Source: Sipunculus nudus (lineage: Eukaryota > Annelida > Sipuncula > Golfingiida > Sipunculidae). Taken from it: a DNA stretch of 64,000 nt. Below, in pieces: positions 6,229 to 63,289 of this stretch. A model generated the notes under the pieces. The model ran no database searches, had not been told where the DNA came from, and saw only the letters and a program-made list of their open reading frames with translations. The stretch spans positions 100,640,642-100,704,641 of the forward strand of contig CM049306.1 in the NCBI GenBank assembly GCA_026874595.1. The letters run 5' to 3'. A program made the position numbers and the translations under genes. The stretch's first letter is position 1. Each line of letters opens with the position of its first letter.

Positions 6229-8609
6229 GTATTCAAGTGAGACGCCTGGTTCTTTCGTCTGTGTTTATGTTTTTGATTCAAACAGAGGTCACCGCTTCCA
6301 AAACAGAGGTATTGGAATCTGCCTGTGCCGGAAGTAACGGGCTCCCGACGTCATCAAGACAGACCACCGCCACAGAGTCACTGGATACGTTGTACCGTGA
6401 CGTCATCGAATTATCCGCCGAGGGTTCCCCGCACATCGAGAAACTAATGAGGCGATACGTAAGTACCCGGATACCAGTCTGGTCAGAAGTTTATAGACTA
6501 GATGTGTACTTATCGGCCGCATTTTGAGATCTGTTGCACACTGGTTCATATTAATCTTTCCTTTCCAACTATTGCATCCATTGTTATTTATCTCTTTTTA
6601 TACTTGTCACCATGTTATAGAGTCAAAACATGCCTTCGTAATTTCATACGGGAAATAAATACCATATTTAGGCTTACCGTTTCTAATTTTTGTCTGAAAA
6701 CTCAATATGAGGATGTTTTCAGTCGGAATCCTGGACTGGCATTGTCGATACAGCTGATAAGAATAACCCCCCCCCCCCGGACAGAGCCACCAAGACTTGA
6801 CCTTGCTGGATATACGTTAAAACTCTTGGGACAGGTACTGCCACCTGCTGACAGATTATATAACTTATTCCCGGTTCTCTGACCGACCAGCGCGTACTGA
6901 TCTAAGTCCAACGGTGCATGTGATCACGTTTGGGTTTACAAACATAAATACTAACAGCCTATCACGGCTGTTGGAACCCTTCATATCTATAAACCAACTT
7001 GGCCCTGATATTCCTAGACATGAATATATATGGAAAAGCCTGTTAGGCCGTAACATATCATTTTTTTCAGGGAATATTCTCGTCAGCTTGCGGCTCACGA
7101 TGAAGGGAAACGCAGAATATTTTGCAGAAGACTTTTGTCCTGACCCAAATTCAATTATTCAGTGTATTATTATAATTCTGATGTTATTGAATTGCTCATG
7201 TTTAATCCTTTCATTTTTTTTCTATTTCAGACCAAAATGTTTGGTAAAAAAAGACTCCATCGGACAAACACATTAAGTAAACTTTTAGACGTAGGAAAAA
7301 TAGACAGTGAATACCTAAGCAATTTAGAGGTAAGAGCTGGAGATTACCACTTATTTTCTCAACAGACTAACAAGGGACATCCACATATAGTAATTATTAT
7401 ATTATTTTATATCAGACAATCTACTGCATATTAACACACATACGCATCTGCTTTGTTGTAAACATAAGTAAATTACATCTGATAAACCAGATAAAACATT
7501 ACTAAATTACACCTGATATGGACCATATGAAATATTGTTAAATTAAACCGAATATGGAATTTACTAAATATTAATCAAATACATCTGTTATGGACCACAT
7601 CAAACATTACAGAATTACACCTGATATGAGCCATACCACATATAACTAAATTACTTCTTATATAGGCAATATTAAACCCCAATAAATTACATCTGACACG
7701 GGCCATATTAAACGTTACTTAATTACTTGATATAGACCTGATTAAACATTTATCAATTATATGTGATATGGACCATATTGAATTACAGCTGATATGGGCC
7801 AGATTAAATATTATTAAATTACACCTGAAACGGACCATACTAAATATAACTAAATTACGCATGGTACGCATTACTAGATTAATAAATAATATCCAATATG
7901 GACCATTTCAAACATAACTAAACAACACCTCATATGGACCATATCAAATATTCCTCAATTACATCTGATATAGACCATATTAAGCGATACTAAATTACAT
8001 CTGACATGGGCCATAATAAACTTTACTTAATTTCACCTGATATGGACCATAAGGAAGATTAATAATTAAGTGTGGGAAAATGAATATGTTTAACTAAGAT
8101 ATGCCTAATCATACATTGATTATATATCAAATTTACAATGATACTTGAGAAAACAAGTGTAATCATGATTATGTTTTGCACGCATGTATCTTCTTAGTGA
8201 CATAAAATGATTGAATCAAAATCGTTCGTCCTCTCGTTAACAGGAAAAGGCGCATATTCAGGTAATGATAGAGAGACATGCTAGGCTTGCGCTTCTGCTT
8301 GAACAAGCCATCATGGCTGAACAGAACCACAACACCGGCATCTTCAAGCGCCACCTGGCGGACATAAAAACAAACCACCTGAACCCAATGCTCTGTAAGC
8401 TGAAGGAAATCATGGTCGCCATGGATACAAATCTGGAGAGACATATCCGTGAGAGACTGTCCGGGCTACAAGTTGGACAGGGGAAGAATTCTCAGGAAAA
8501 TAGGTCTCGGGCTTATCACACGCTGCGCCATCTTAACAGACTGTTCAAACAAGCCAATAAGCTGGAACTAGAAGCGCTGCTCAACAGACTGCGCCCCCTG
8601 GAGGAATAA
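6229..8609 (+). CDS. Cytokine-like secreted protein gene D (diverged member; first exon not found)
   Basis: I assign three coding exons: 6229-6458 (phase 1 in, phase 0 out), 7231-7329 (33 codons, phase 0) and 8244-8609 (121 codons plus TAA). All have AG acceptors and GTAAG donors. Exon 2 begins with a hydrophobic leader (LVLSSVFMFLIQ), then ESACAGS and a helical segment ending IEKLMRRY. Exon 3 (KMFGKKRLH...SEYLSNLE) parallels the LYFGDKYTG...DYLNSLD exon of copies A-C. Exon 4 (HIQVMIERHARLALLLEQ, KRHLADI, PMLCKLKEIM, NRSRAYHTLRHLNRL) matches the A-C exon 4 position by position. Both cysteines are retained. I could not identify exon 1, which should be a short ATG exon ending in phase 1, so the N-terminus is missing. 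The AATAAA at 8605-8610 overlaps the stop codon. Function as a helical cytokine is inferred from architecture. Confidence 0.75.
7450..8065 (+). repeat. Degenerate minisatellite of about 39 bp in intron 3 of gene D
   Basis: Around fifteen imperfect units of the type AAATTACACCTGATATGGACC followed by ATATTAAACATTACT fill most of the intron. Units vary in length and sequence, and no unique spacers separate them, so this is a minisatellite. Confidence 0.75.
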
Positions 8610-8940
8610 AGCTCGCATTAAAATTTAGGTGCACAGGCACTCTTGGATATTTTTATTGATGAGTTGATGAGTGTTATAAAAATGAAGAAGTATTTATCAG
8701 TTTTTTTATATTAATAGTATAAAGTATTCATGTAAATATTATTATTAAATATTTATTCATGTAAATATTATATAACCATTAATTTATTATATTCACAGAA
8801 AGTATATACAGTATTATCACTTATTTATTTGTTCATATGAGAAAGTATCGGAATACGTGTTTTTTATATTGCGATGTGATGAAAATTTAACTGACTAAGA
8901 CTCGCTCACCTTTTCTACTCTGAATATATCTATTAAAGAG

Positions 8941-8945
<5 letters not shown>

Positions 8946-9001
<56 letters not shown>
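8946..9001. repeat. (TA)n microsatellite
   Basis: A pure TA dinucleotide run of about 56 bp lies downstream of gene D. The rest of 8610-9590 is AT-rich with no supported gene. Confidence 0.95.
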
Positions 9002-9006
<5 letters not shown>

Positions 9007-9589
9007 GAAATAAACACTCAAGCAGTTACTTCTTACTGCTGTCCATATATACATTTACCCATGTGTCAGTTTGTTTGAGAGAGAGAGACAGAGAGTCAGA
9101 GGGAAGGAGACAAGGAAAAAATATATATTTTGTATGTGCTTCTTGCGACAAAATAAGATAACCAGTCAGCAATCTCATTACTTTTCTAGTCACGGTGGTT
9201 ATTTGGTCGGTTCAAGCAAACAAATACTAGAGGTCATGTTACTGACAGATAAAACGGTTCAGTTTGCTTTAAAGAAAAAGGCTAAAGACATTCAAGAAAA
9301 CATAAATGACACTATATTTCTGTTCATATCGCAAGCATGTTATGAAAGTTCTCTATGGTAAAAGTTATGTCAAAAACCGCCGTGACATATGAACAATGAT
9401 CGATCTGTTTTTCTAATCATCGCTCGAAGACTGAAACAAATTTACATAAAGTTTTGGAAAATTTGCTCCAAGCAATAATTATTAACTGTTTCACAATGAA
9501 TTGAATCTTTGCAGTAGATACATTCCTTGACACATCGCTTCGAAAATGTAAAATGGCCTGATTCAGTCACATTTTAACTTAGGCCTTAG

Positions 9590-13129: not shown

Positions 13130-13353
13130 ACAGTTCTTTGTATCCTGAATCTGGTTTTCATATCGATTTCATGATTGACAATAATCCATTTATCCCTGAA
13201 TCCCCTGTGCTATTTATAGCGCCATGCACAGGCCCTGCCTTATAAAAGGGATTGTGTAGCTTGTAACGAGCAAGTCACAGCTCTTGATCAATAACAATAC
13301 ATCCTCAATACATATCTGCTAAAGAGCAATATCTCCAGAAAAAAAAAACAACA
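13130..13353 (+). promoter_or_regulatory. Promoter and 5' leader of copy A
   Basis: A TATAAAA box sits at 13241-13247, 113 bp before the ATG. The upstream 110 bp shares ordered blocks with the promoters of copies B and C: TATCCTG, TTTCATGATTGA, GAATCCCC and CTATT.ATAGCG. After the TATA box all three share a CTTGTAACG..CAAGTCA-like leader. Conservation while surrounding DNA has diverged suggests functional constraint or recent common descent. Confidence 0.75.
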
Positions 13354-15557
13354 ATGGTTTTTGCAGAAGTAAATAGAAATACAGGTAAGTCTTTTCGAAC
13401 TACTTTCTCCTGTATCCCCTGACATTCAAGCAATATATTTTTTTACAGAAAAATTATTACATATAATTTAACATAAACGCAGAAGTATTTAAAAAGTGAT
13501 TTTAAAGTAGATGTAATTTAATATTATGTATAGTTTAAAAATACACGTAAATGACTGTTCATGATATCACATAAATGTTACAAACAAAACATGTTTAGTA
13601 TTAGGACAACAGAGTGACTTAGAAAAAAAGATAGAATGTTATTATGTTGATCATCATCCACATTAATTTCAATCATTAATTTCAGCATCATCAGTCTCGT
13701 GTATATTGCGAGCTATCTTCATAATTTTACTAAGTGAACATGGCGCGAGGGGTGTTCCCATAATGCAGCGGGGCACTGACGTCACCACAGCTATGCCCGT
13801 TAGCCAGTCAGAGGACAACACGTGGCATCCTTGTGTTCGCTCAACTTACAGCCTGTTGAGAAGAGTTCCAAATAATTTAGAAGAACGCCCTTTACATGAG
13901 TTGTACAAGAGAGTTTTACAGCTTACCCAAGAGCTTTCAAGTGTCTTGCGAGAAGTTATGGAGGACTATGTAAGTTCTAAAAAGAGCAAATAATGGTGTA
14001 CTTTTAATTGCTCTCCATCGCTAAATTATCACTCAGTTACAAAGTATACTTTATTATTATCACCGTTGCAAGACTTTTTAATAATAATATTTTAGATTGC
14101 AGTTTAAAGGACTTTCTTCTGTTTGTTTTAGACTTCTGTAGTTTCTGGTCAAACTCAAAATACTTGTGTATTTTCAGGAATTTATTCACCTACCAACTTT
14201 GATTTGATACCACTATATTTTATAACAAATATACTGTTGTTCATAATTATGTTACATATGATTCCCAACAGGAACTTTATTTCGGAGACAAATACACAGG
14301 ACACCTCAGAGAACACCAATCGTTTCACGGAATGCCGGATATTCCTGAAATCACGATAGATTACCTTAATTCGCTTGATGTAAGTACAGAGTCATGACGT
14401 CATTTCGCATATTACCTCAATATACATATGAGAGCTGGCCTTCAGTGGTTTGTTACGAAATGATGATGTAAATTAATGTGAACAAATCCTGACCTGGTTT
14501 ACACATTTACACTGAGAATTAAAGGGATATTAGAGGACCTCCATTTTTACTTTTGCGTGATAAAATAGAAATATGTTTTACAAGCTTTCCCTCAGTCGCA
14601 AGGGAACACATCGTTTGAAACTTCCCTTGTATCATACTAAATTACATGAATTGATATTACTATCTGAGATACAAATACATCCCCTGGTTTGATTGAACAC
14701 GATCTTCATTGATTAATTGGAACCAGTTGTACACGTTTAAATCTACAAATATGTTTGACTTAACTTCGTTTGTAAATTAATGCACTTTAACCAAACACAG
14801 TTTTTACACATACATGAAAAGCTGGTCATTTCTCACTCTTTGATTTCTAAGCTAACAACGTATTATTTCAAAGTATTTATATTTACACTACCCTAATATG
14901 AAGGAACGCAAAAATAAGGTAAAATGACGTCTCGATGTAGGCAATTCACCAAGCTGTGGAAAGTTTCTCAAATGAATTTGATAAGATATATACCGTTTGA
15001 GATCTTAATATAATCACAAATCATTAAATGTGTGTATATGTGTTTGTGGGTACATGTTTGTGACAGCTGCGTTACGGCGTGAGGCGACAAGAAACTTTGA
15101 GCATGTGCTAGTGTACCCATTGTGCAAGTAGGCTTTATCACCAGAAACCTAATCTTTTATTTTTATTCTTGACTAGGAGTCGCATACCCAGGTTTCCTTC
15201 GAGCGCTTCGCCCGGTTTGCCATCTTTTTGGAGCAAGGGATCCGAGACGAAAGTGAACACGCGTCAGGCTTGATGCAGCGCCACCTGGTGAAGGTCAACC
15301 ACAAATACGTATATCCCTTGCTGTGTTTGTTTCGTGAGATTTTACAAGTCAAGAAGAGACCACTGCCTAAGAGGGTCACCCGCAGTATCATTCACACAAA
15401 GTTAATTACAATGGAGTCGATCCAAGAAAGTCGATCACGTGACTTCATCGTCTTGCGGGATCTACGTAGAATATCGTCTGTCATAACTCTGGAGGAATAT
15501 AAAGAACTACTGCTGCGCCAACAGGAAAATTCCAAGGAGAAGACAACAAACCTGTAG
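13354..15557 (+). CDS. Cytokine-like secreted protein gene, copy A
   Basis: Four exons join into a 267-residue protein: 13354-13384, 13686-13969, 14272-14379 and 15177-15557. Intron 1 is phase 1 and introns 2 and 3 are phase 0, all GT-AG. The ATG is chosen because it follows the TATA box and aligns with the ATGs of B and C. Residues 14-33 form a hydrophobic leader ending near ARG. After a short linker come C60 in WHPCVRSTY, a long helix to residue 105, a loop exon with LYFGDKYTG and FHGMPDIP (106-141), and helices near 143-165, 168-199 and 210-243. The second cysteine is C191 in PLLCLFREI. The segment RSRDFIVLRDLRRISS and the exon plan resemble long-chain four-helix cytokines (IL-6/CNTF/CLCF1 type). 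That assignment is inference; no receptor evidence is present. A secreted helical protein of another family remains possible. Confidence 0.85.
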
Positions 15558-24735: not shown

Positions 24736-26928
24736 GTTCCCGGACCGTCAGCGCCATACATCACCGCCTCGCTGAACTAAGGTCTTTTCCAGTGACGTCA
24801 GCAGTGGTCTTTCCCAGAACCTTTTTCAAAACCAACATGGTTCATTCAGTCATCGCCTATTCCGGGCTTCCAATTGGCTACTTATATTCCCATTTACTTT
24901 GTCTTAATATGTTTAGGTCGTCGCTTATGTTGAGTTCGGCGAAACTTTAAAACACTATAACCCTCAGCCTCAGTGTTAACGTTTATCGGACCACCACTCT
25001 TGAAAGTCGGCCTAACAAACTCTGGCTCAGCCAATCAGCGCGAGATATTCAGGTGCACACGACGAGAGCAGTCAAAATGTACCGGCTGACTGAAACGATC
25101 ACGATTCGCGAGTCGCAATTTGAGAGTTAATACACGGGTTCAGACAAATGCTGCCAGCTGCTCTTGTCATCCCGGTAGAGAGAATTTTACTGGACCTGTC
25201 GGTACAAAATTGTTGCAATAGTGTCTACAAATGCACTTACATTTGGCCCATGGACCGTAATATTCGTTCAGCAGAGACAATCATAAGACACGAAGGCCAT
25301 GTGTGGTCTACCTGAATACATTGATTTCAGTGCGAATGTTACCAAGTGGGTCCAGCTGTCGGACCGCTGTTGGCGTTCTCGTAACAACGATGCCACTCAC
25401 ATGAGGCGTGACGGCCTGATATGCAAATATGGGGGAATCGTCAAATCCTCAAAGAGCCGTGTGACGCCTTAATATGCAAATATCAGGGATTCACCAAACG
25501 GACTTTACAGGGCTTTAGTGATAAGAGCTGACACTGAGTTAAGTCTATCGGTACATGGAATCACGTTTTATTTTAAGCATTTTATAAGGAACGCAAATAC
25601 TAAAGCCCAGGCAGGGCTAAAGTATTTTATTCACTCTTCAAATTAGAAGAGGAAATGAGTAAATATAATTAAAAAAAAATAGGCGAAATGGTACGACATG
25701 TTATTTTCTTCAATGGTCCTCCAGGATGAAAAAAAAATTATTTGTAAATTCCATCTATGTATGTGTGTCGTTGTAGATATAAGCCCGAAATGTATTGCTA
25801 GCAATTGTAATATAACCGCTCGGGAATTTGTGTATGTTCAAGCATTGTATGGGGTCTCATGATATGTCTGGCCCTACTGCACCAACGTACCGGATTAAAT
25901 CCTATAAAAGCTTATTTAAACAATTTAAATATTGACAATGAGATTGACAATGATGACTCAAGTGATGGTCATGTGGTATTTAACCTCGTAATGGTCATTG
26001 GATATATTTCTTATATCAATATTTATCTAAGCTGTTGATACAATGAAATTATTTTTATCGTCATATTTTTATGTACCGCTACTTCTATTGTTATATACGA
26101 AGCATGATATTAATATATCAGCCATTGCGAGATGCATCGCTATAACCGTTTGTTTACTTTAATAAAATGTATTCATTTGACAAAAAAAAGTTTAATATTT
26201 ATAACAACAAGTCAAACATAAAGAAATGCAGGAAAATGAAGTCAAAGTGATTTAACCCTTTCATGCATCAGTTACGAAGATGTTAACCTCTCTCATAGCT
26301 TCTCTGCTGTGGAGGATGATCATGTTCAAACCGAAAACTGCTACATAAACATGTCAACACAAAAACTTTTTTCTTTACAGGTAATTATTAAGGAAAAATT
26401 TCTGCAGGAACAAATAAATTGTTGGAATGGCCTGCTACAGAAATATGTCATCACTTGAAGACAGACTATTTGTTTGGTGCTATGATTATTCAAACAATAA
26501 TCTTGTTAATATATTTTATTGTTTCAATTCAATAAAATCTTAAGGCATTGCTGACTTGGATTTATACCATACCTTTGAAAGTCATTGCATTCGTTGGGAA
26601 ATGAGTTTGACACTTAGGGCGACCAAATGCGTTTTTGCTTTCTGGGAACGGTTTTTGTTCTGCGCAGACAGAAGATGGTATTTGGCTCTAATACAAACAT
26701 CTGTAGACGTGGCCCCTGAACAAGCATGACTTTAACTGGCCATTGAGTGCAAACGGGCTCAAACCCAGCCGCTTCAATACAGGGACATTTTGGCTTGACA
26801 AGCATAAAACCACAACAAGCTCAAGCTTTTTCAAATAATCAGATTGTTGGTCTTAAACTCTGTTTGTCACTATATTTTCATAAAAACAGCCGCATATATT
26901 TTAAGAAACGCGACAAATGTTGACACTG

Positions 26929-27436
26929 ATTTCGTCATATCAGAGACGCCATTTTGTTTTTGACAAAGTAGCTTGTTAGTGCAATGCAGCAACCAGCTTC
27001 TGTTCACAACCTCCCGCACAACTCGCCAAATATAGTCTGACCTATTTATAACATATATTTGTGTGTTTGGCAAAGGATATCAGCTCTTCCGGGTGTACAG
27101 AAACCACAGTAACGAGGCATAACGCCACAGTGGTTTAAAAACAGTAAATGAAACTGAACGATATCTTCACCAATATCAACTGATTTCGTTATATCAGAGA
27201 CGCAATTTTGTTTTTGACAAAGTAGCTTGTTAGTGCTATTCAGCAACCAGCTTCTGCTCACAACCTCCCGCACAACTCGCCAAATATAGTCTGACCTATT
27301 AATAACAGATATTTGTGTGTTTGGCAAAGAATGTTAGCTCTTCCGGGTGTACAGAAACCACAGAAACGAGGCATAACGTCACAGTGGTTTAAAAACAGTA
27401 AATGAAACTGAACGATATCTTCACCAATATCAACAT
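26929..27436 (+). repeat. 254-bp tandem duplication, two units
   Basis: The segment from TCGTCATATCAGAGACGC to CACCAATATCAAC at 27181 repeats at an offset of 254 bp and ends at 27435. The few differences are single bases. The related sequence in unit 2 (48265-48340, ACGAGGCATAACGTCACAGT) is a single diverged copy, so the tandem step happened in unit 1 only. The minus-strand frames over it simply repeat with the DNA. Confidence 0.85.
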
Positions 27437-28907: not shown

Positions 28908-31454
28908 GACTCCCATGCCCTCTGCCAGATGTGGGCACCAGGCATTTCTCTTATCAGTTTATCAGTCTACTGGGAAATACTTTTTGTGTGGATAGTCTAC
29001 ACCCTAGGTGTTAAATTAATAAACACAATGGGAAAACATTAACTGTACCTTCTAACAGTGCAAAATTGTTGAAAATGTCATTCTTAAAGGACTTAAACTT
29101 CTCTAAGGATATAGCAGTTGAGGTAAATATTACGGTGGCTGATTTAGGACACAGAAAAAAAATATTTTTTTTCGAGATCTCGACATAAATTATCATAAAA
29201 AATATTTTGCTGCAGAAAAAAAATATTTATTTCGAGATCTCGACATAATTCATCTCAAGATGTCGAGATCTCGAGATGTTAAGTCGAGATCTCGAGATAA
29301 AATTTTACATTTGTACGAACCGTTTGATGTTGTTTTGACATAAAGCAAAACAACTTTAACGGGACAGGATACGTGAAGAGTGCTTACTATTGCAATTATA
29401 AAATCAAAGAACATGTATACTGTGTTTAACTGTCCGGTAATACAATATAATTCATTTGAAATCAATCAAGTTTGTATTTCCCCTAAGATAGGGCGAGGTG
29501 AAGAAAAGTTCAATATAAAATTCAATATTTAATATTCATATCCGTAAGGAAGATGTCAAAGCCCAATGAAACTGAACATTCTACCTGAACGGCGGATTCG
29601 AAGTCATGGCTGAGAAAATCACTCAAATAGAAATGATTTGGTCTGCATACATGCATTGTGGGTACCTTATGAATTTTTAAAATACTAACAGATATGAGCT
29701 TGGTTTAAAAACACGCTTTTTGAACAATTTTTTTTCAGGTTTCATTAATTGAATTGGTGGTTTGTTTTATTGCATATGTATTTGATCATCATCAATGAAA
29801 ATATATTAAAAATGATTGCTGTGTTTTCGGGTAAGTACGCGGGGGGGGGGGGGGGGGGTTGGATCCACTATAATTATAGCTCAGATTTCCTTTTGTCTAC
29901 CTATCTAAATCACAATTGATTCATCTCCATAAATAAACGGTATAAATATTAAGACAATCATCTCTCATTATGTTTTTCCTTCTGCAAAATGCTCTGCTTC
30001 GGTCTTAAAGCCACTATATTCACCTGCCTTATTTATAGAATTTTTGTGATACCGGCTAACTCTGCATATACATATTAAAGAACTTAAGGTAAACCTTGCT
30101 GGGAAATGTTCTTATAACGCCACTTTGACGTATAAACATTTTATCTGTAGGCTACTTGTACACAAGCTACTTGATCTTTAAAATAAAGATAAAAACATGT
30201 AACCGAGTAATTGAAAGACCCCTAGTTGATGTTCGTGAGAGCATGTGAAGCAAAGCAATTATTGTCATTTAAAGAACTCTGAAGCCAGATGTCTTTGCCG
30301 GAAGTGTTTCTGTTACGATCGGTGGCAAATTTTGCGAAACTAGCCACCGTAAAATGTGGTGTTTACCGTTAATTATTTTGAATTAAAGACAAATCAATGT
30401 CTGGCAAACTTTGTTCACAGACTATATACTGTTCCCTGATCAGTAGTTCACTCCTCTTAATATCCTTCATTATCTCTGAATATAAAATGCAATCAACACT
30501 AACGCACTAAGACACGTGCTTAATTCATCCTTCAAATAATGAATGTAAATGTATGGAATAGCAGCGAGACATAATTGTGTGGTGCAACAACAATACTTGG
30601 GTTCAGTGAACTTGGAAGAATTGCTTATCTGGGGCTTGGAGAATGAAACTATGAAAACAATTGTGACTATATCCATTTTTAAAATAAGTTACAAAGCCGA
30701 TTTCTGTGTTAAATGATCAAATGATTTTGTCCGATGCGAAAACTAACCGCAAACACTTTTATACAACCGACCACGACCTGTTGCTGTGCCACACAGCCAT
30801 GCGATGACTTCCTGCGTCCATTAAGTAGTAACAATGCAGTAGTAACATTCACTCTGGCTCATCCCACTTATCCACCGTTTGCAATTGCCGCTTTTCCGAA
30901 CACAGCCGACCAAGTACAAGAGGGCCAAGATTTCCCCGAAACAGTGCGACAGCGCAGGCTTGAATCACAAGATATAAGCAAAAAGCGCAATAACCTGCTC
31001 TGATTGGTCAGAAGTTATGAATAATTTTGACAGAAGGAATACACGGCCTTTTTTATATCTCTGGCTTTCTAACTGTAACTCTTTGGGCAGCCGGAGCTAA
31101 ATTCTCCACCGTCTATCTTCTTGAGAAAAAAAACTGACAAAACGGCACCGCATATATACACTGTAAAAAGTGCCGTTTCTCTTATGTTTCAAATAAACTC
31201 TTACATGTTTCAATTTGTGACATGTTTTGTGGCTGACACATGTCTTTTACATGTGTCATCAAATTTTTCCAGATGAACGGTCGTTGAAACAGCAAGACAT
31301 GTCTGAGACATCTTTGAAACGTGTTTTATGGGGTCATATAATTCAACGGCTCGATTTTTTGCCTTTTCGGTTTAATATTTCGTCACTTGAATTTAAGTCT
31401 GAGCATGCAGAAGCATTCCAACTGAAAATGTCGTCCTCTGTTAATGAAAAAGCA
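28908..31454 (+). repeat. 2.55-kb tandem duplication, copy 1
   Basis: 2547 bp starting at GACTCCCATGCC. It is followed directly by copy 2, with the same sequence apart from one base in a poly-G run (18 G here at 29841-29858, 17 G in copy 2). It contains the TCGAGATCTCGA cluster, the segment homologous to 52300-52620, and the left end of the transposon-like insertion that continues after copy 2. Confidence 0.93.
29175..29301. repeat. TCGAGATCTCGA palindrome cluster, copy 1
   Basis: Four copies of the 10-12 bp palindrome TCGAGATCTCGA lie within about 130 bp, two of them embedded in near-identical AAAAAATATTT...TCGAGATCTCGACATAA units. The cluster can fold into hairpins. It recurs at 31722-31848 through the tandem duplication. 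Confidence 0.85.
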
Positions 31455-34000
31455 GACTCCCATGCCCTCTGCCAGATGTGGGCACCAGGCATTTCTCTTA
31501 TCAGTTTATCAGTCTACTGGGAAATACTTTTTGTGTGGATAGTCTACACCCTAGGTGTTAAATTAATAAACACAATGGGAAAACATTAACTGTACCTTCT
31601 AACAGTGCAAAATTGTTGAAAATGTCATTCTTAAAGGACTTAAACTTCTCTAAGGATATAGCAGTTGAGGTAAATATTACGGTGGCTGATTTAGGACACA
31701 GAAAAAAAATATTTTTTTTCGAGATCTCGACATAAATTATCATAAAAAATATTTTGCTGCAGAAAAAAAATATTTATTTCGAGATCTCGACATAATTCAT
31801 CTCAAGATGTCGAGATCTCGAGATGTTAAGTCGAGATCTCGAGATAAAATTTTACATTTGTACGAACCGTTTGATGTTGTTTTGACATAAAGCAAAACAA
31901 CTTTAACGGGACAGGATACGTGAAGAGTGCTTACTATTGCAATTATAAAATCAAAGAACATGTATACTGTGTTTAACTGTCCGGTAATACAATATAATTC
32001 ATTTGAAATCAATCAAGTTTGTATTTCCCCTAAGATAGGGCGAGGTGAAGAAAAGTTCAATATAAAATTCAATATTTAATATTCATATCCGTAAGGAAGA
32101 TGTCAAAGCCCAATGAAACTGAACATTCTACCTGAACGGCGGATTCGAAGTCATGGCTGAGAAAATCACTCAAATAGAAATGATTTGGTCTGCATACATG
32201 CATTGTGGGTACCTTATGAATTTTTAAAATACTAACAGATATGAGCTTGGTTTAAAAACACGCTTTTTGAACAATTTTTTTTCAGGTTTCATTAATTGAA
32301 TTGGTGGTTTGTTTTATTGCATATGTATTTGATCATCATCAATGAAAATATATTAAAAATGATTGCTGTGTTTTCGGGTAAGTACGCGGGGGGGGGGGGG
32401 GGGGTTGGATCCACTATAATTATAGCTCAGATTTCCTTTTGTCTACCTATCTAAATCACAATTGATTCATCTCCATAAATAAACGGTATAAATATTAAGA
32501 CAATCATCTCTCATTATGTTTTTCCTTCTGCAAAATGCTCTGCTTCGGTCTTAAAGCCACTATATTCACCTGCCTTATTTATAGAATTTTTGTGATACCG
32601 GCTAACTCTGCATATACATATTAAAGAACTTAAGGTAAACCTTGCTGGGAAATGTTCTTATAACGCCACTTTGACGTATAAACATTTTATCTGTAGGCTA
32701 CTTGTACACAAGCTACTTGATCTTTAAAATAAAGATAAAAACATGTAACCGAGTAATTGAAAGACCCCTAGTTGATGTTCGTGAGAGCATGTGAAGCAAA
32801 GCAATTATTGTCATTTAAAGAACTCTGAAGCCAGATGTCTTTGCCGGAAGTGTTTCTGTTACGATCGGTGGCAAATTTTGCGAAACTAGCCACCGTAAAA
32901 TGTGGTGTTTACCGTTAATTATTTTGAATTAAAGACAAATCAATGTCTGGCAAACTTTGTTCACAGACTATATACTGTTCCCTGATCAGTAGTTCACTCC
33001 TCTTAATATCCTTCATTATCTCTGAATATAAAATGCAATCAACACTAACGCACTAAGACACGTGCTTAATTCATCCTTCAAATAATGAATGTAAATGTAT
33101 GGAATAGCAGCGAGACATAATTGTGTGGTGCAACAACAATACTTGGGTTCAGTGAACTTGGAAGAATTGCTTATCTGGGGCTTGGAGAATGAAACTATGA
33201 AAACAATTGTGACTATATCCATTTTTAAAATAAGTTACAAAGCCGATTTCTGTGTTAAATGATCAAATGATTTTGTCCGATGCGAAAACTAACCGCAAAC
33301 ACTTTTATACAACCGACCACGACCTGTTGCTGTGCCACACAGCCATGCGATGACTTCCTGCGTCCATTAAGTAGTAACAATGCAGTAGTAACATTCACTC
33401 TGGCTCATCCCACTTATCCACCGTTTGCAATTGCCGCTTTTCCGAACACAGCCGACCAAGTACAAGAGGGCCAAGATTTCCCCGAAACAGTGCGACAGCG
33501 CAGGCTTGAATCACAAGATATAAGCAAAAAGCGCAATAACCTGCTCTGATTGGTCAGAAGTTATGAATAATTTTGACAGAAGGAATACACGGCCTTTTTT
33601 ATATCTCTGGCTTTCTAACTGTAACTCTTTGGGCAGCCGGAGCTAAATTCTCCACCGTCTATCTTCTTGAGAAAAAAAACTGACAAAACGGCACCGCATA
33701 TATACACTGTAAAAAGTGCCGTTTCTCTTATGTTTCAAATAAACTCTTACATGTTTCAATTTGTGACATGTTTTGTGGCTGACACATGTCTTTTACATGT
33801 GTCATCAAATTTTTCCAGATGAACGGTCGTTGAAACAGCAAGACATGTCTGAGACATCTTTGAAACGTGTTTTATGGGGTCATATAATTCAACGGCTCGA
33901 TTTTTTGCCTTTTCGGTTTAATATTTCGTCACTTGAATTTAAGTCTGAGCATGCAGAAGCATTCCAACTGAAAATGTCGTCCTCTGTTAATGAAAAAGCA
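31455..34000 (+). repeat. 2.55-kb tandem duplication, copy 2
   Basis: 2546 bp. The outer junctions and the internal junction all carry GAC (28908, 31455, 34001), a 3-bp microhomology consistent with a single template-switch or end-joining event. The lack of substitutions implies very recent origin, a polymorphism, or an assembly error. Confidence 0.93.
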
Positions 34001-34170
34001 GACGACAACCGGATCAACAGCGGCTCTTCTCTAGTCGATGTAATATCATGGGCCAAAGTGAAGTTCAAGTTTGAATCTGCTTGAGAACGATTGAGAGGTA
34101 GGTATCAATTCAGTAATCGTTCATTCAAATATCGCTTTTTCTTATTGCATCAGCGTAATGTGTGTGTGCG

Positions 34171-40339: not shown

Positions 40340-40564
40340 AATAACCACTGTGCAGTCCTCAGTTCCCTGCATCCTGTCTATAGGTTTCTTATTGATTTCA
40401 TGATTGATATAATCGGTTTTTCTGTGAATCCCCTTATTGCTATTAATAGCGATATAACGATATAAAAGGGAGCCCTGTAGCTTGTACCGGACAAGTCATA
40501 GCTTGTGATCAAGGATTCATCATTTACACATATTAATCAAGTGCAGAAATAACACGATAATACA
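40340..40564 (+). promoter_or_regulatory. Promoter and 5' leader of copy B
   Basis: TATAAAA lies at 40461-40467, 104 bp before the ATG. Upstream blocks CATCCTGTCTA, TTTCATGATTGATAT, ATCGGTTT.TCTGTG and CTATTAATAGCGATATA match copy C almost base for base, and copy A more loosely. The leader (ATATTAATCAAGTGCA.AAATAACAC) is shared with copy C. Confidence 0.78.
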
Positions 40565-42649
40565 ATGTCTTCTGTAGAAGTAAAAGGACATTCAGGTGAG
40601 ATTTCATTCCGATCCGAGTTCTTAATTATCTGCAGCTTGTAAATAAAAGTTCATATGGCACAACTGTTGCAAATTATGTAACACAAGATTTTAGAGGAAA
40701 ACATCAAATGCTTTTTGATAATTTGGAGATACAAGTAAGAAAGTTTACTTATTTAGGAAGTCCATGTATGTTTAAACATTTAATTTATTATGAGTAAATC
40801 AGAGTAACCTTTCATTTTTTAAAATAAATTCCCACACACCAATTATACAATCTACAAATCTTGATTATCACGAAACAATTTTCTTTATATATTTCAGTTT
40901 CATCGTTTATGAACATACTGCGAGCCATCCTAATCATTTTACTGACTGATCACGCAAGGAGTCTTCCTATATTACAAAGGGGGATTGAAGTTAATTCCGT
41001 CACAACAACGGCCATGCCCGTAAGCCAATCAGATGACAAGACGTGGCATCCTTGTGTTCGCTCAACTTACGGTCTGCTGAGGAGAGTACCAAATAATATA
41101 AAACCACGTCCTTTAAATGAATTGTACAAGAGAGTTTTACAGCATACCCAAGAGCTTTCAAGTGTCCTGAACGAAGTTATGAAAGATTATGTAAGTTATA
41201 AAACGGAACATATTGATTTACATTTCTTTCTATTGAACAAATATATTTTGGACTGCAGTTTAAACGTACTTTTTGTCAGTTTTTGAACTCATTTTATTAT
41301 TGTACAAAAATTACTAGAGTATATATCAGAAAGTTTACTTATAATTTACTTTCAACCTGCAACATTTAACTGAAACACCCAAAGGAATTTTTCTGAACTA
41401 TAACCGATAATATATACTGTTTAATCATACTTTCCTCTTTCATGTTTCTCAACAGAAACTGTATTTTGGTGACAAATACACGGGGCAGCTTAGCGAACAC
41501 CCATCGTTTCATGGGATGCCGGATATCCCTGTAATGACCATAGATTACCTGGATTCACTTGATGTAAGTAGTCTCAACACCTCCCGAAAACCGCGGATAT
41601 ATTATATATATATAATATATAATAATTAATTCTATATATAATTATATATACATGTATATATAAATATCAGTCGGTTTTATTAAATTAGTACAAGATGGGC
41701 ATCACACTGAGAGAGCTGAACATGACACGCACAAATACACAGAAAGGGAAACAGAAGACCTGAATTAACATCAGACGACTCAATTTTCAATCAAATACTG
41801 TAAAACAGAAGATGTACTATTGTTCCAATACCATAAGATAACTTCCTTATGGTGAAAATATTCAGTATTTAAATGCACAATATCTGACTAATTGATTCTC
41901 TTGGGATTTCAATTCCGAATCAAAGGTGGTCTGGGTTTGAACCTATAAATATCCAATTAATTAAACTTAATACATTAAAGTAAAGCTAGTTTGGTTAAAA
42001 ATAAAACCATTTAAATCAGGTTTTATCAAATTGGTTATTTGTTGCCGTTTTATTATATATAAACTACACATATTATATCAAAACCAGAACACTTAAGTTA
42101 TGGTTTTCACCAGCATATCGCGAAAATTCATTCCTTTATGTGTGCGCGCGTGTGTGTGTGTGTGTGTGTGTGTGAGTGAGAGAGAGACAGACAGAAAGAT
42201 AGAGAGTGAGGGGGGATAAATGCACCACGACGTTCGGTGATATTAGAAACTACTAAAATTAAATCAATTTTTTTATCCACTTACAGGAGACGCATACACA
42301 GGTTGTCTTTGAGCGCTTCGCCCGTTTCGCCATCTTTTTGGAACAAGGGATCCGGGACGAAAGTGAACACGCGTCAGGCGTGATGAAGCGACACCTGGTG
42401 AGGATCAACCACAAATACGTGTATCCCTTGCTGTGTTTGTTTCGTGAGATTTTACAAGTCCAGAAGAAACCACTGCCAAAGAGGGTCACCCGCAGTATCA
42501 TTCACACAAAGTTAATTACAATGGAGTCGATCCAAGAAAGTCGATCACGTGACTTTATCGTCTTACGAGATCTACGCAAGATCTCGTCCGCCATTACTTT
42601 AGAAGAGTATAAAGAACTGCTACAGCGAGAACAAGAAAAAAAGCATTGA
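40565..42649 (+). CDS. Cytokine-like secreted protein gene, copy B
   Basis: Exons 40565-40595, 40898-41190, 41456-41563 and 42287-42649 join into 264 residues, with intron phases 1, 0, 0 and GT-AG borders. Exon 1 encodes MSSVEVKGHS. Exon 2 gives the leader NILRAILIILLTDHARS, the linker with TTTAMPVSQSDD, the cysteine in TWHPCVRSTY and the first helix. Exon 3 starts with lysine (KLYFGDKYTG) where A and C have glutamate. Exon 4 has the ETHTQVVFERFARFAIFLEQ helix, PLLCLFREI with the second cysteine, and RSRDFIVLRDLRKISS. The C-terminus is shorter than in A and C, ending REQEKKH. AATAAA at 42737 follows the stop by about 90 bp. It is the closest relative of copy C. Cytokine function is inferred from architecture and helix pattern. 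Confidence 0.86.
42139..42200. repeat. (TG)n/(GA)n microsatellite in intron 3 of copy B
   Basis: A GCGC and TG run passes into GA repeats about 90 bp before exon 4. Copy C has a pure GA run at the matching place. Confidence 0.9.
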
Positions 42650-46517: not shown

Positions 46518-49274
46518 AATGAATACTTGACAGTCAGTATCTCAAACGTACCCATGATAAGCTGGTTACCATACTGAAAAGCAACATGCCTTCGTGAAAA
46601 GTTCATTATCTACATTATAGGATGCACACAGGAATAAGGGATATATAAACAAAATAAACTTAGCTCACCCCTTCCCCCATATCTACACACACACATACCT
46701 TAAAATTTAAATGGTACCTCTGCTTTGAAATTCAACGAGCATTATAAAAAGACAGGTCCCTTTACTAATTCTGTTTAAAAAATTCACCGAAGGAACCTAG
46801 GAAATATATATTTTTTTTTATGCTTGACCTTAATCTTGAAATTCGAAGAGCAAATGAGTAATTTAAAATAATAAAAAAAATAATATAATAAAGTCGACAC
46901 GAAACCACCGGTATAGCTTCCAGGCCCTGTAGGATGAAAGCAAGTACATATTTATTTGTAAATTCTGGTCATTGTAATATAACTTCTCAGGAATCTGAGT
47001 ATTTTCAAACAATTAATTTTCTCTTAGGAAATATCTTGCCCCATTGCTTCAATGTACAGGTTTAAATCCTATAAAAGCTAGTTCACACAATATAAGAGCA
47101 ATTACTTCCGCACCTATAAGCATGTTCTTGTGCTCTTGGGAACTCTTGCAGCTGGATATACAGGTTAACTCACAAACTCACAAGACAAAAGAGAGTTCCC
47201 CATTTCTAAGCATTTTCTTATGATTTTCATTTAAATAAAAGGCCTCAGGCCCGCCTGGTTACTTCCAAATAAATATACATTAGTACAAATGACAAATGTG
47301 AAAATACATTTTTCTAATGGGATTTGATCTGGATTTGATCCCAGTTGAATCCCTATTCCTTCAGTGTACAGAACTTGGGTTGATCTTTAACACAGGCATA
47401 GGACTGGTATACTTCAGGTAGAGACTGACCATATGCTTGCAAATATTTGCTCGAATAAAGTTAAATAATGAAGAAATATATATAGAACAGGGCACCAAAC
47501 TACGCTGGTAAAGGTTTCTGAGGTCAATAGAATCACCGCTCTGCCCCGATCAAATGAGGTCTTAACTTTTTTACACAATCTGGAAATAGTTCATTTATAT
47601 TTAGCTAGTAAGGCATTATACTTAATGACCGCATCTCTCGCTTTCTAAATTTCCACGACCAGTGTAGGATATCAAGAAATAAGCTGCATTCATAGTCCTT
47701 TAAAAAATTAAAAGACCAATCTACTTTCGTTTGCAATTAGCATATTCTTACTCGGGTTTGATAGAAACACGCAGAGATACTCAAATTACAGACAGTATTT
47801 TCATAAACTAACGTAAACTTTTTTGAAAACCCGACTATATTGTTTCATTTACTTTATTATGGAACCTTTTTTCTTTTTGAACTGAAATCTGAATTTGGCC
47901 ATTTATTAAAAAAACCAAGTAATTCTTAACATTTTTTACAGTTAATTTACAAGACGATGTCAAAATTTCTGCAGGAACATATATTTATTGTTAGAATGGT
48001 ATATCATAGAAACAAGTCAACCCCTGTAGTGAGACCATTTTTTTGGTGCTATGGTTATTCAGACAATAATAATCTTAATATATTTTGTTGTATCAGTAAA
48101 ATGCAATCTTAAGGCATTGTTAATTGGATTTTATAACATGCAGTTGAAACTCATGCAGACAATGGGAACTGCAGATTTCAGGAGAGAAACTTGGAATCTG
48201 ACATTTAGTTAATATAATCTGTCTTATTTAGCTAAGACTATTAGCTCTTTCTTGTGTAAAGAAGCCCCAGGAACGAGGCATAACGTCACAGTGGTTTAAA
48301 CAGTTAATGAGATTAAACGATATTGTCACCAATTTTAGCATGAAAAAGTTATTACACTTAGTTTATTTTTATATAAAAAGGAAGGAAAAACAAAGGCCGG
48401 CATCCTCCCATGTGTTAGGTGTTGTTAGAAAGTACAGATATATCTACCGATTGGTCAATGTTATGTTAGGTAAAAGCCTACCTGTAGATCATAAAGCGTT
48501 GTCAAAAATGAACAAACTATTTGCATCCTTACAGAGCTTTGTGGTACGGCCCTACATATAGGATTTTAAGGCACTCTGAGGCAAATGGGACACTCTCTAT
48601 GATCAAAGGGCCGAAAATTGATACTATAAACCCATAACATGGCTAAATAAAACCTAGACACGATGATTGGTCGACTTGTATCAGTTTGTTTATTAGGGAA
48701 TCAAAGAATCTTATTTTGAAGTCTGACGGGGTCACTAGTGTCAAGAGAATGACAGAGCTATCCTAAGTTTTATACTTTACTCCTAAGTTTTATACTTTAC
48801 TTTCAGTTAAATTCTGTTGAACTATTATGGGCCGACCTTGTGCGAGCATGTTATTTTCGAGATTTTGTTTAACTAAATTGAAATTTAAAAGAAAATTATA
48901 GCATCAACGAAAGTGAACACTGACAATGCATGAAGGGTCAAGCTAATAATGCATTAAACTGCGTCAACATAAACCGGCGCTGCTTGGCGTCCGCCACGTA
49001 ATAATTGTATCCGCCAAAACGAAGTTTTGCGGATACCATGTTTTTGACCGGGTTCCGCCGCCGCCGCGTTCGTTTCCGGAGAACTTCTCTGAGACTACTG
49101 GACGGATGTTTCCAAAACTTACACAAATTATCGGGTCACATGTGAACTGGTGGCTAACCAAGTGGCCTTGACCTCTGACCTTTCCTCTCTGCCCAGCGTC
49201 CGTTTGTACACATAAACCCACATATCTCGGGAACGGTTTGACCGATCAGGAAAAAAATTTACACAAATGTAGCC

Positions 49275-50290
49275 CTTGGATAGCTTTATAACATACACGA
49301 AAAAAGGTGGCGCCACCTGCAACCATGTTTGCACAGTGTCCATCTGTTCATCTGCCTTGGGTTAAAATCACTCATATCTCTGCAGTGGTTTGACTAATTC
49401 ACCTAAAATTCGGCATGCGTATACATCCTAGATAGCTTTCTTGATTTTATGACAGGTGGCGCCACCTACATTTACGTTGACGCTGCAGACATCCAAGCTC
49501 ATAACTCAGGAACCGTTTGACCAATCAGGAAAAAAAAAATTACACAAATGTATGGATAGCTGTATAACATATACAAAAATGGTGGCGCCACCGGCAGCTA
49601 TTTTTGCACAGCGTCCATCTGTTTGTCTGCCTTGGGTTAAAATCACTCATATCTCTGCCGTGGTTTGACCAAATTACCTGAAATTCGGCATGCGTATACA
49701 TCCCGCATAGCTTTCTTGATTTTATGACAGGTGGCGCCAGCTTCATTCACGTTCACGCTGCAGACATTAATGCTTATATCTCCGGACTCGTTCGACCAAT
49801 CAGGAAAAATTGTTTACACAAACGTAGCCCTTGGATAGCTTTATAACATACACAAAAATTGTGGCACCACCTGCAGCAATTTTTGCACAGCGTCTATCTG
49901 TTTGTCTGCCTTGGGTTAAAATCACTCATATCTCTGCAGTGGTTTTACCAAATTACCTGTAATTCGGCATGCGTATACATCCTGGATAGCTTTCTTGATT
50001 TTATGACAGGTGGCGCCAGCTTCATTCACGTTCACGCTGCAGACATTAATGCTTATATCTCCGGACTCGTTTGACCAATCAGGAAAAAAAATTACACAAA
50101 TGTAGCCCTTGGATAGCTTTATAACATACACAAAAATGGTGACGCCACCTGCAGCAATTTTTGCACAGCGTCCATCTGTTTGTCTGCTGTGGGATAAAAT
50201 CACTCATATCTCTGCAGTGGTTTGACTTTTGCATGTGTATACATCTTGGATAGTTTCTCGTTCAAATAACAGGTGGCGCCACCTACAATC
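49275..50290. repeat. 278-bp satellite with GGTGGCGCCACC cores, about 3.6 copies
   Basis: Unit starts (GGATAGCTTTATAACATACAC and variants) fall near 49277, 49553, 49831 and 50110, giving a period of 276-279 bp. Each unit has two half-monomers of about 130-150 bp, each carrying a GGTGGCGCCACC-like palindrome (49308, 49454, 49581, 49729, 49859, 50007, 50137, 50271). Other constant phrases are CATCTGTTTGTCTGCCTTGG and CGGCATGCGTATACATCC. No protein is encoded; frames on both strands merely repeat. Confidence 0.85.
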
Positions 50291-53164: not shown

Positions 53165-53397
53165 GCTACTGTGCAGTCCTCCCCTCCCAGTGTATCCTGT
53201 CTACAGTTTTCACATTACTTTCATGACTGATATTATCGGTTTATCTGTGTATCCCCGTAACACTATTAATAGCGATATACCCATGCCCTGCCTTATAAAA
53301 GGAGGTTCTGTCGCATGTAACGGATAAGTCATATATCCTGATCAACGATTCATCATTATAACATATTAATCAAGTGCAAAAATAACACAATAATACA
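53165..53397 (+). promoter_or_regulatory. Promoter and 5' leader of copy C
   Basis: TATAAAA at 53294-53300 stands 104 bp before the ATG, the same spacing as in copy B. TATCCTGTCTA, TTTCATGACTGATATTATCGG and CTATTAATAGCGATATA precede it, and CCATGCCCTGCCTTATAAAA is closer to copy A than to copy B at this point. Confidence 0.78.
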
Positions 53398-54427
53398 ATG
53401 TTTTGTGTTGAAGTAAAAAGAAATTCAGGTGAGTTTCCATTCCGAATTGAGTTCTCATTCAGCTGCAGCTCAGAAATTTCATATGGCACAACTGTTGCTG
53501 ATTATGTAACAAATCTAATTTGTGTTGGTATTTTGGAAATACACGTATGAACAGTAACTAATTCATGATAGTTTATGTATGTTAAAAAGAGTGAATTTAA
53601 TATATATAGAACAGGGTAACTATGATTATTATTTTCAAATTGAATTCACATTCTAATAATACACTTTTCACACATTAAACAAATTTCTTTATATCTTTCA
53701 GTTTCATCGGTCGTGAACATATTGCTAGCCACCCTAATGATTTTACTGACTGATCACGCAAGGAGTCTTCCTATGATGCAACGGGGCATTGATGTTAATT
53801 CCGTCACAACAACGGCCATGCCCGTAAGCCAATCAGATGACACGTGGCATCCTTGTGTTCGCTCAACTTTCGATCTGCTGAGGAGAGTGCCAAATAATAT
53901 AAAACAACGTCCTTTAAATGAATTGTACAAGAGAGTTTTACAGCATACCGAAGAGCTTTCAAGTGTCCTGAACGAAGTTATGAAAGTTTATGTAAGTTCT
54001 AAAACAGAACATACTGGTTTACTTTTTTCACTATTTTCAATTATAAAATTATGATTCATTTACTTAAGTTTACTTTTATAATTACTGTTTGATTGTGATG
54101 AATCATCCGTTGGTTATAACAATATTGTAGATTGCAGCTTAAACGTACTTTTTGCGGGTTTTATGTATTATTGTCTTTTCATACTAAAAATACGATTGAG
54201 TGTATATTAAAAAAAATAACAATGAACTGAAAAACTGGACCTTAACTGATGTTGTATACTGTTATTCTTACTTTTCGCTATCATGTTTCTCAATAGGAAC
54301 TATATTTCGGCGACAAATACACGGGGCAGCTTAGCGAACACCCATCGTTTCATGGGATGCCGGATATCCCTGAAATGACCATAGATTACCTAGATTCACT
54401 TGATGTAAGTAGCCGCAACACCTCCAA

Positions 54428-55016: not shown

Positions 55017-55458
55017 AATGCACCACGACGTCGGGTGATATAAGAAACTGCTAAAATTAATTTTGTTTTCAATTCCCTTACAGGAGACGCATACCCAGGT
55101 TGTCTTTGAGCGCTTCGCCCGTTTCGCCATCTTTTTGGAACAAGGAATTCGGGACGAAAGTGAACACGCGTCAGGCGTGATGAAGCGACACCTGGTGAGG
55201 ATCAACCACAAATACGTGTATCCCCTGCTGTGTTTGTTTCGTGAGATTTTACAAGTCCAGGAGAAACCACTGCCAAAGAGGGTCACCCGCAGTATCATTC
55301 AAACAAAGTTAATTACAATGGAGTCCATTCAAGAAAGTCGATCTCGTGACTTCATCGTCTTACGAGATCTACGCAAGATCTCGTCCGCCATTACTTTAGA
55401 AGAATATAAGGAACTGCTTCTGCGAGAACAAGAAAGCAGCAAAGAGACAAGAGAATGA
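53398..55458 (+). CDS. Cytokine-like secreted protein gene, copy C
   Basis: Exons 53398-53428, 53702-53991, 54297-54404 and 55084-55458 give 267 residues, with intron phases 1, 0, 0. Exon 1 encodes MFCVEVKRNS. The leader is NILLATLMILLTDHARS, followed by LPMMQRG. One codon is missing before TWHPC compared with copy B. Exon 3 (ELYFGDKYTGQLSEH, FHGMPDIPEMTIDYL) differs from B at two residues and from A at five. Exon 4 differs from B at three positions before the C-terminal tail, which ends EQESSKETRE. AATAAA at 55532 follows the stop by 75 bp. The strict conservation of exon 4 against freely drifting introns indicates purifying selection and a working gene. The cytokine assignment is the same inference as for copy A. 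Confidence 0.86.
54430..54459. repeat. (TA)n microsatellite at start of intron 3 of copy C
   Basis: A TA run follows the exon 3 donor by about 25 bp. Copy B has a more scrambled TA-rich region at the same place (41600-41665). Confidence 0.9.
54975..55016. repeat. (GA)n microsatellite in intron 3 of copy C
   Basis: About 20 GA units lie roughly 70 bp before the exon 4 acceptor. Read on the minus strand it creates serine-leucine frames that are not genes. Confidence 0.95.
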
Positions 55459-59913: not shown

Positions 59914-59961
<48 letters not shown>

Positions 59962-60433: not shown

Positions 60434-60495
60434 TTATTGTTGTTAGGGAGCACTCACAGAGCATATCCCTGTACCAACGCCAAAGTATACGTATA

Positions 60496-60549
<54 letters not shown>

Positions 60550-61421
60550 CACTGAAGAAAAAAACACTGTAAATTCACTACAGACTGTTTTACGAGATGA
60601 GCCCGATCATCAGGTGAATGTTGTTAGAATGAAGCTATCGGCCATAGAGCACTTACAACATTACTTTATAGAAACATTTAACACTGGTCCAACAAGCGGA
60701 GCAAGTATAACTCGGTTCCTTAATAAAATTAATTCTTCTTTACCTCTAGAAACACCTCTGAGTTATGTATCATAAAATGAAATATTTTCCCCAGATATCT
60801 TGGACAAACAATTTTTACGGACAAACATTCTATCAGAGTGACAGATCTGTATAAATGTAAGCTCCCACAGGTATGCTTCACAATGACCCCCTCCCCTCCC
60901 CGTTCCTTTCTGCATGTCATAGATACTTTAATCCGTGAACTGTCAAAACCATATAGTTCAAAGTCCAACGTCAATGTCCATCAGCTGCCAGCCAAACCAT
61001 TCTATTACACAGATTTTGGAAGGGAGAATAAAAAAGAAGTATGAAAACCAATCAAGCACTTAAAACGGGATAAACTGGGAATAATTCAAACAGAACAGAT
61101 TTACCGAATAACCATCTTGATGTGCTCCCTAGGACCTATGATTAGTTGAGACCCTGTAGGGCCAGAGCTACACAGACTTTATTGACCTTTGTCATGTTTT
61201 TTTCCAGGAACAACGGCATTGATCACTTTGACCACATAATATATATATACATATACAGCACTAAATCTTTGTAACTTATCTGTTTCTGTATCTTCTATCA
61301 GGAAGGAAATAGGGAGAGACTGGGTAAAAAAATCAAAGACGATGAACATCTAAATATAAGACGGAATGTCATACCGGAAGAGATAAGCCAAGGAGTCGAT
61401 ATGATGCTCATATCTACTTAA
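60434..61421 (+). CDS. Putative multi-exon gene E, unrecognised (5' end missing)
   Basis: A consistent model uses exons 60434-60484, 60584-60766, 60871-61038 and 61302-61421, all joined in phase 0 with GT-AG introns, and an AATAAA at 61463. The first segment reads LLLLGSTHRAYPCTNAK, like the end of a leader followed by a cysteine. The second is amphipathic (VNVVRMKLSAIEHLQHYFIE, SITRFLNKINSS). The third starts VCFTM and includes RSFLHVIDTLIRELSKPY. The last runs EGNRERLGKK to MMLIST and TAA. Intron 1 holds the TA microsatellite. The donors GTATCA and GTATGA are weak, and exon 1 with the ATG is not found. Gene size, phase-0 introns and two cysteines would allow a distant helical cytokine, but sequence similarity to copies A-D is not convincing. 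Confidence 0.4.
60497..60545. repeat. (TA)n microsatellite in putative gene E
   Basis: A TA run of about 48 bp. It stays open in the same frame as its neighbours (alternating Tyr-Ile), so either it is translated or, more likely, it sits in the 99-bp intron 60485-60583. Confidence 0.9.
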
Positions 61422-61429
61422 TAACCTAC

Positions 61430-62995
61430 TCCCTGTCATACAAAGATAAGCATATATATATAAATAAATATTGGCATTTTCAATTTTAATACTTTTAAGT
61501 ACTACCTTTTTAACTTGATGCACACTTGATATATATCAGACGCTTGGTACTTTACATATGTTACGTCTACCGATATAATAAATCTTACCCTTATCGGTAA
61601 CTTTTCTTTTTCTATACCTTCACTATTATACTCTTGGTATAAGAATAAGTTTTCTATACTACTGCTATTTATTCCTGATTTATCGATCAGCATATTATTA
61701 AATACCTCACCATAGAACAATAAACATTCTTCTGCAATCAACCCCGCTGCTTATACTTTTACCATCTTTTATTTCTCATACACTGTACAAAACCAATTCT
61801 CATCAGCCCATACATCAATGGTTTTCATGATCTATAGTACTAATAGTAGTATATACCTTATACCTAGCATAGATACAGGTTTCTGTGTAAAAAAAACAAT
61901 CAGGCTACTGCCATGAATGATGGTCATTGCATAATCAATACGTTCTACTGTCAAGGAGAGAAACATGTCGGATAGAAACATGTGAAGGATATAAATGTGT
62001 GAGATGTGGGAGGTGTGCTCCTTTCCATGGCGGCGGTTGACTAATTGTTCCTCTGTCATGTGTAATTGTTTTTTATTCAACGTTGGCTAGCTGTATCTGT
62101 GTTAAAATCTTTACTCAAAATATTATGAACGGATTTTTATGATATTTTACTGAAGGTCTGGCTGACATGCAAAAAACAGTCATTATATTATAACTTTGAA
62201 GTTAATCTGGATTAATAAAATGTGATTTTAAGGATTCTTTACCATTGCCAGATAGGACAATCTGGTAATCCTGGTCGAATTAAGGCGAGAGCCCTTCACA
62301 CACTTGTCTGGGTACACATTTGTTTGGGCAAATAGATTTACACATTTATACGTACCGCACGCCAAAATTTGATCAATATACATGTTATATTTTATAACTG
62401 GTGATTCAGAATGTTTGTAGGGATACATGCGGTCTCTGATTGCTTTCTAGTTTGAGTATAAAACGGGGCGAAACTGAAGCACTTTCCACTAATCAATCTA
62501 ATATAGTATAATGCAACCACTTGTATTTCACCAGGAAACCATGTAAGAATATTTTTTTTCTGTATGCAAGTTCTGTGTTCTTTCTAAATAAAAATTCATT
62601 TTGATGATATTAGCATCAGGGACAAATCTGGGCAGATCTTCAAATATTTCTGGCTTCCTCTGTACAACCCATGAATTCATTCACAAATACCTATTGTTCA
62701 CTTTACTTTCTCAATCATTGCAGAAATACTGTTATCATATTTTGATGAAAATTATGAAACAAATAAGGAATTGGATATGGTGTCGTGTTGAAAAAATATC
62801 ACAGTGTTAAATATATATATATTTTGTGTTATGATAAACCATGCCAAAACCCAATCGTAAAAAGCAGTCAAACCCATGAACTAAAAAAAGACTAAGAGCG
62901 TGTAGTATCTTTGCTTCATCTGTGGAAGTTATCATGAAAAAATTTTAAAATTACCACTCAGAGAAACAGATACAAAAATAATAATTTTTCTTCCT
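61430..62995. other. Intergenic spacer between E and F, no gene
   Basis: AT-rich with short frames on both strands, none with splice support, homology within the window or a promoter. The minus-strand frames at 61502-61741 and 61832-62080 are the longest and lack any recognisable feature. Confidence 0.3.
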
Positions 62996-63109
62996 AGGCT
63001 GGGTGTAGGCGTGGACCATTTAATCTCCTTGGTACGCTACTTAGCCGCAGGCGACATTGATATGCCATTTCTCTGATAAAATCTAGGACATGATGTTCAG
63101 TCAAACTTC

Positions 63110-63236
63110 CCTCTTATTCCCCGGCTTTGCTGCAGTATATAAAGCTTAGCTCTGACCCAGCCAAGCAAGTAACTTGTTTCATCCAGCGATAAGACCCGGT
63201 CTCTGAAAACATTACGCTGACAGAAATTCTTAGAGA
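63110..63236 (+). promoter_or_regulatory. Promoter and 5' leader of gene F
   Basis: TATATAAA at 63136-63143 lies 101 bp before the ATG, the spacing seen in copies A-C (104-113 bp). The upstream blocks of A-C are not obvious here, as expected for a diverged member. Confidence 0.55.
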
Positions 63237-63289
63237 ATGGACATGTCACATAACATGCTATCTTTCCGACAAGTTGGGAATAGCTACGG
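63237..63289 (+). CDS. First exon of a probable further family member, gene F (partial)
   Basis: The ATG begins MDMSHNMLSFRQVGNSY and the exon ends with a single G before GTAAGTG, that is, in phase 1, as in exon 1 of copies A, B and C. The exon is 17 codons plus one base against ten codons plus one base in the others. The rest of the gene is not in the window: the only nearby acceptor (TAGATTTCAG near 63570) leads straight to a stop, so exon 2 must lie beyond 64000. Assignment to the family rests on promoter spacing, exon size and phase. Confidence 0.5.

Follow-up and report, generated by a model that had tools for sequence, protein, structure and literature searches.

The window analyzed here, a 64-kb stretch of the Sipunculus nudus genome (C1:100640642-100704641), contains four nearly whole paralogous genes, D, A, B and C, and the beginning of a fifth, F. 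Searches of the genome (1.43 Gb in 153 contigs) place these genes within a tandem array of ten intact paralogues and at least one exon relic, which spans ~143 kb of a single strand of contig C1 and runs G1, G2, G3, G4, D, A, B, C, F, G5, with G1, G2, G3 and G4 upstream of the window and G5 downstream of it. The original prediction for this DNA had proposed four genes and the start of a fifth; these are indeed present, with the exons of D, A, B and C in the expected places, in open frames and with AG/GT borders, and the proposed exon 1 of F in its stated place too, though the count was too low. There is good support for its broader claim that the locus holds short secreted proteins in a tandem family beyond the reach of homology searches.

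A tandem array of ten paralogues

When exon 4 of gene A was used as a genome query, eleven matches were returned up to an E value of 10: nine strong places, A itself included (E 5.5e-75 to 1.3e-11), a tenth place in the cluster corresponding to G5 (E 0.185), and a sole match outside the cluster (E 2.15). The ten cluster matches all lie on the + strand of C1 and span about 141 kb, and exon 4 of G1 as query gave ten matches at the identical ten places. G5 as query yielded nine non-self matches up to E 10, six of them in the cluster, with the four best all being weak cluster matches (E 0.045-0.17). Scanning profiles of exons 2, 3 and 4 against 5,369 open stretches of at least 20 residues in 159.6 kb recovered the ten genes, one extra exon 3 and one minus-strand chance match (E 0.22). 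This extra exon 3 is the relic, a frame-shifted, A-type exon standing on its own between G4 and D at about −3170 to −3058 in window numbering (C1:100637471-100637583), and is a sign of gene birth and death within the array.

In a tree of the family, G4 groups with D (100/100) and A, B and C group with F (93/99), while G5 has by far the longest branch. Six of seven pairs have a ratio of nonsynonymous to synonymous substitution (dN/dS) of 0.16-0.49, the seventh, A-F, yielding no dS, and the array genes are thus under purifying selection. Because ten copies are open, splice borders are common to them and dN/dS is low, these are real genes rather than chance frames, which confirms D, A, B, C and the first exon of F as such.

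Gene and protein organization

All ten gene models share the one intron plan originally predicted for the genes of the window, with phases 1-0-0. Exon 2 carries helix A and has a phase-1 acceptor within the leader; exon 3, the loop exon, measures 81-108 nt (27-36 residues) and is flanked by phase-0 introns; and exon 4 is a single last exon that runs to the stop. Exon borders are AG/GT, with weak exon-2 donors in G3 and G5. Genes A, B and C begin with a 31-nt coding exon 1 that ends in phase 1, and in each an aligned TATAAAA box precedes the ATG by 104-113 nt. For gene F an exon 1 of similar form is proposed with less certainty, its exon 2 lies at 64608, past the window end, and the ATG of G5 lies within exon 2; a start codon was identified only for A, B, C, F and G5.

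The leader and the two aligned cysteines named in the original prediction also extend to the whole family. In all ten members the most hydrophobic 10-mer is N-terminal, and all ten align two cysteines 123-136 residues from each other, the first ahead of helix A and the second in exon 4; in B, C, D, G4 and F this pair represents the sole cysteines of exons 2-4. A Y-x4-G motif, aligned by eye, closes helix A, with Y in nine of ten members and G in nine of ten (the exceptions being Met for Y in G5 and Ser for G in F). Nine genes have the exon 2/3 intron directly after the Tyr position of this motif; in G3 it is displaced by one codon downstream. Features of the window are collected in Table 1.

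Table 1. Gene features in the window (window numbering)
Feature	Position	Strand	Remark
Gene D exon 2, leader and helix A	6229..6458	+	phase-1 start, phase-0 end
Gene D exon 3, loop exon	7231..7329	+	33 codons, both ends phase 0
Gene D exon 4 to stop	8244..8609	+	presumed helices B, C, D
Gene A TATAAAA box	13241..13247	+	
Gene A exon 1, coding part	13354..13384	+	ATG to phase-1 donor
Gene A exon 2	13686..13969	+	
Gene A exon 3, loop exon	14272..14379	+	
Gene A exon 4 to stop	15177..15557	+	
Gene B TATAAAA box	40461..40467	+	
Gene B exon 1, coding part	40565..40595	+	
Gene B exon 2	40898..41190	+	
Gene B exon 3, loop exon	41456..41563	+	
Gene B exon 4 to stop	42287..42649	+	
Gene C TATAAAA box	53294..53300	+	
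Gene C exon 1, coding part	53398..53428	+	
Gene C exon 2	53702..53991	+	
Gene C exon 3, loop exon	54297..54404	+	
Gene C exon 4 to stop	55084..55458	+	
Gene F proposed TATATAA box	63136..63142	+	less sure than the A, B and C boxes
Gene F proposed exon 1, coding part	63255..63288	+	from third of three in-frame ATGs; GT at 63289

Repeats are also present in and around the window. A 36-nt minisatellite of 17 copies (7459-8051) sits inside the last intron of gene D, and tandem repeats occur at 26925-27434 (period 254, 2 copies, 95% matches) and 49222-50226 (period 279, 3.6 copies). Two direct copies about 2.5 kb apart, at 30725-31589 and 33271-34084, contain an identical 92-residue open frame and a second, near-identical one. 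Between F and G5, at 86282-88298 in window numbering, a repeat array with units like VLHGHHSTSID is open in two frames (625 and 573 residues) and looks like a satellite rather than a gene. Elsewhere in the assembly, the small contigs C60-C89 carry nine copies of a cytochrome oxidase subunit I frame with 46-47% identity to a metazoan consensus, which are probably from bacterial companions.

Affinity of the family

Three features point to long-chain class I helical cytokines, namely the exon plan, Y-x4-G and a full-length match to CLCF1. The match, made with the family profile, is collinear over the full length, and none of 400 shuffles reached it. On the strength of gene architecture, a single motif and a profile match that is fragile, a cytokine family is the best explanation of the locus, and we think it probable that the array encodes small secreted proteins that belong to the long-chain class I helical cytokine type, with a plan closest to that of the IL-6/LIF/CLCF1 group.

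Several results weigh against this assignment. No exon 1 was found for D, G1, G2, G3 or G4. None of the six Pfam families matched by any of the ten members is a cytokine model, the family profile matched no chain among PDB sequences, and tblastn with human CLCF1 misses the cluster. The CLCF1 match disappears, dropping to 3.1-3.5, when the divergent member G5 is left out, none of 11 smaller profiles favors CLCF1, and in local mode 2 of 100 shuffles reach the CLCF1 score and an IL-10 sequence scores 20.9 versus 18.5 for CLCF1. Unlike the array members, CLCF1 lacks a Cys ahead of helix A, and the parallel for the cysteine pair is limited to LIF and OSM, in which an N-terminal Cys is bonded to a Cys of helix C. 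On the receptor side, the two candidate exons discussed below rank sixth (C13, E 5.2) and seventh (C4, E 7.6) of seven genome matches, below the cut-off. The four helices of the original prediction also fared unevenly: the 100-degree hydrophobic moment is strong for helix A (p 0.0005) but nonsignificant for segments B, C and D (p 0.087, 0.12 and 0.80), and likewise for the loops (p 0.83 and 0.27), so four amphipathic helices are not demonstrated by the moment test. The class I long-chain assignment put forward at the outset is partly supported; it draws on intron phases, the loop exon, Y-x4-G and the CLCF1 profile, and is weakened by the dependence of that match on G5 and by the Pfam result.

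Tandem, fast-diverging secreted families are common in invertebrates, and the array could instead encode secreted helical proteins that are not cytokines, for example gamete-recognition or defense proteins, a reading that would fit both the clear amphipathicity in helix A only and a family unnamed in Pfam, NCBIfam and PDB sequence searches. We regard it as unlikely, as six of the seven pairs show a dN/dS well below 1, the exon plan and Y-x4-G are cytokine-like, and the ten members match no egg-lysin or comparable Pfam model.

Candidate signaling partners and a proposed mechanism

The Pfam IL6Ra-bind model, searched against the genome, matched at seven places, always below the cut-off; retroelement tails account for three of them, and two more were dismissed by eye. 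The others, at C4:57936696-57937652 and C13:68300093-68300212, lie in exons with splice borders and show C-x9-C-x-W, the pattern of domain 1 of class I receptors. Searched alone against Pfam, the two exons match IL6Ra-bind as their sole family (E 7e-4 and 4.5e-3), values that overstate the likeness because the exons were picked from the genome. Joined to the next exon, the C4 exon matches IL6Ra-bind at 1.1e-4 (23.0 bits versus a cut-off of 24.3), with EpoR_lig-bind and LIFR_D4 among the four other families listed, and the three PDB sequences listed are IL-13 receptor alpha-1, twice, and the thrombopoietin receptor (E 0.1-1.2). We consider both exons candidate class I cytokine receptors. STAT_int exons are found on C12 (E 2.6e-13 and 4.2e-4), and FERM_F2, a JAK domain, gave one match over the cut-off (C8, E 3e-5), a probable JAK-type FERM exon. 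The Jak1_Phl model found no match in the genome and was silent in control genomes as well.

The best reading of the array products is that they may be IL-6/CLCF1-like ligands of a JAK-STAT-coupled receptor. The leader would export the protein from the cell, helices A to D would pack into a bundle, and a disulfide linking the cysteine ahead of helix A with that of the fourth exon would clamp it. At the cell surface the bundle would gather class I cytokine-receptor chains, whose associated JAK kinases would then phosphorylate STAT and so change gene expression. As the tandem copies have diverged, they suggest ligands differing in timing or receptor.

The array may represent a true invertebrate IL-6/CLCF1 branch, with intron positions, loop exon and helix-A motif inherited from an ancestor common to the vertebrate genes, an idea we hold to be somewhat less likely than not. 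Such inheritance would make the ligand as old as the receptor, and the ten-gene array would then be a missing ligand set of the invertebrate IL6R-JAK-STAT module.

Significance of the array

In a paper of May 2026, IL-6 family cytokines are reported in vertebrates only, with IL6R, JAK and STAT reported together from Mollusca onward; as other ligands it names Unpaired for insects and, for crustaceans, an IL-like C-type lectin (PMC13203501). The array would matter because invertebrates are reported to have such receptors while most of their signals are unknown. Our survey of the literature on invertebrate helical class I cytokines, which covered neither preprints nor most subscription journals, met no recognized account of this family, and its members may already be deposited as uncharacterized proteins. 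A family of class I cytokine gene architecture that is invisible to searches, accompanied in its genome by candidate receptors, STAT and a probable JAK, puts the ligand question within reach of a test, and if the reading is confirmed, IL-6-type cytokines would be older than vertebrates.

Comparison with known cytokines

Among invertebrate ligands, Unpaired proteins act through the gp130-like receptor Domeless (PMC7378365), with which molluscan IL6Rs are reported to cluster (PMC13203501). The array genes could accordingly be kin of arthropod Unpaired, and not of the IL-6 group of vertebrates, working in the same way from another ancestry. Drosophila Unpaired is likewise a secreted ligand, but no array member matches the Pfam Unpaired model, by which alone the two were compared, and we give this kinship very little credence.

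Oyster CgIFNLP, also a proposed invertebrate helical cytokine, is listed as class II-like with low identity to vertebrate cytokines (PMC9756803), and the array could by analogy be an interferon/IL-10-like family signaling through class II receptors and JAK-STAT. Interferon-lambda 2/3 (IFNL2/3) genes have a very short first coding exon and a phase-1 intron followed by phase-0 introns, as in the array, and form an exception to the class II phase-0 rule (PMC2654155). The introns of IL-10 family genes, however, split no codons (PMC2654155), and fish type I IFN genes are described with four phase-0 introns (PMC4929537). The array, with its phase-1 border before exon 2 in all ten genes, departs from a plan in which all introns are in phase 0. 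CgIFNLP, compared by its published description only, is said to have an IFN domain, whereas Pfam finds none in the array members; no IFN or IL-10 model is matched, and the receptor candidates look class I. We consider a class II family improbable.

The class I reading finds its closest parallels among vertebrate long-chain cytokines. CLCF1, CNTF, OSM and LIF, judged from their sequences, likewise carry Y-x4-G at the end of helix A, and all four are secreted, like the predicted array proteins. In CNTF the intron after codon 38 follows this same Tyr, as does the second intron of LIF. LIF has one intron fewer than the array genes, the extra one lying before the last exon, and the array proteins lack the F-x-x-K motif found at helix D of these cytokines. 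Class I genes as a rule have a phase-1 leader intron and then phase-0 introns, as do the array genes. EPO has a separate in-frame AB-loop exon of 87 nt (29 residues), placed between the helix-A exon and the later exons just as in the array (PMC5473850). Taken together, we read the exon plan as closer to that of class I than of class II cytokine genes.

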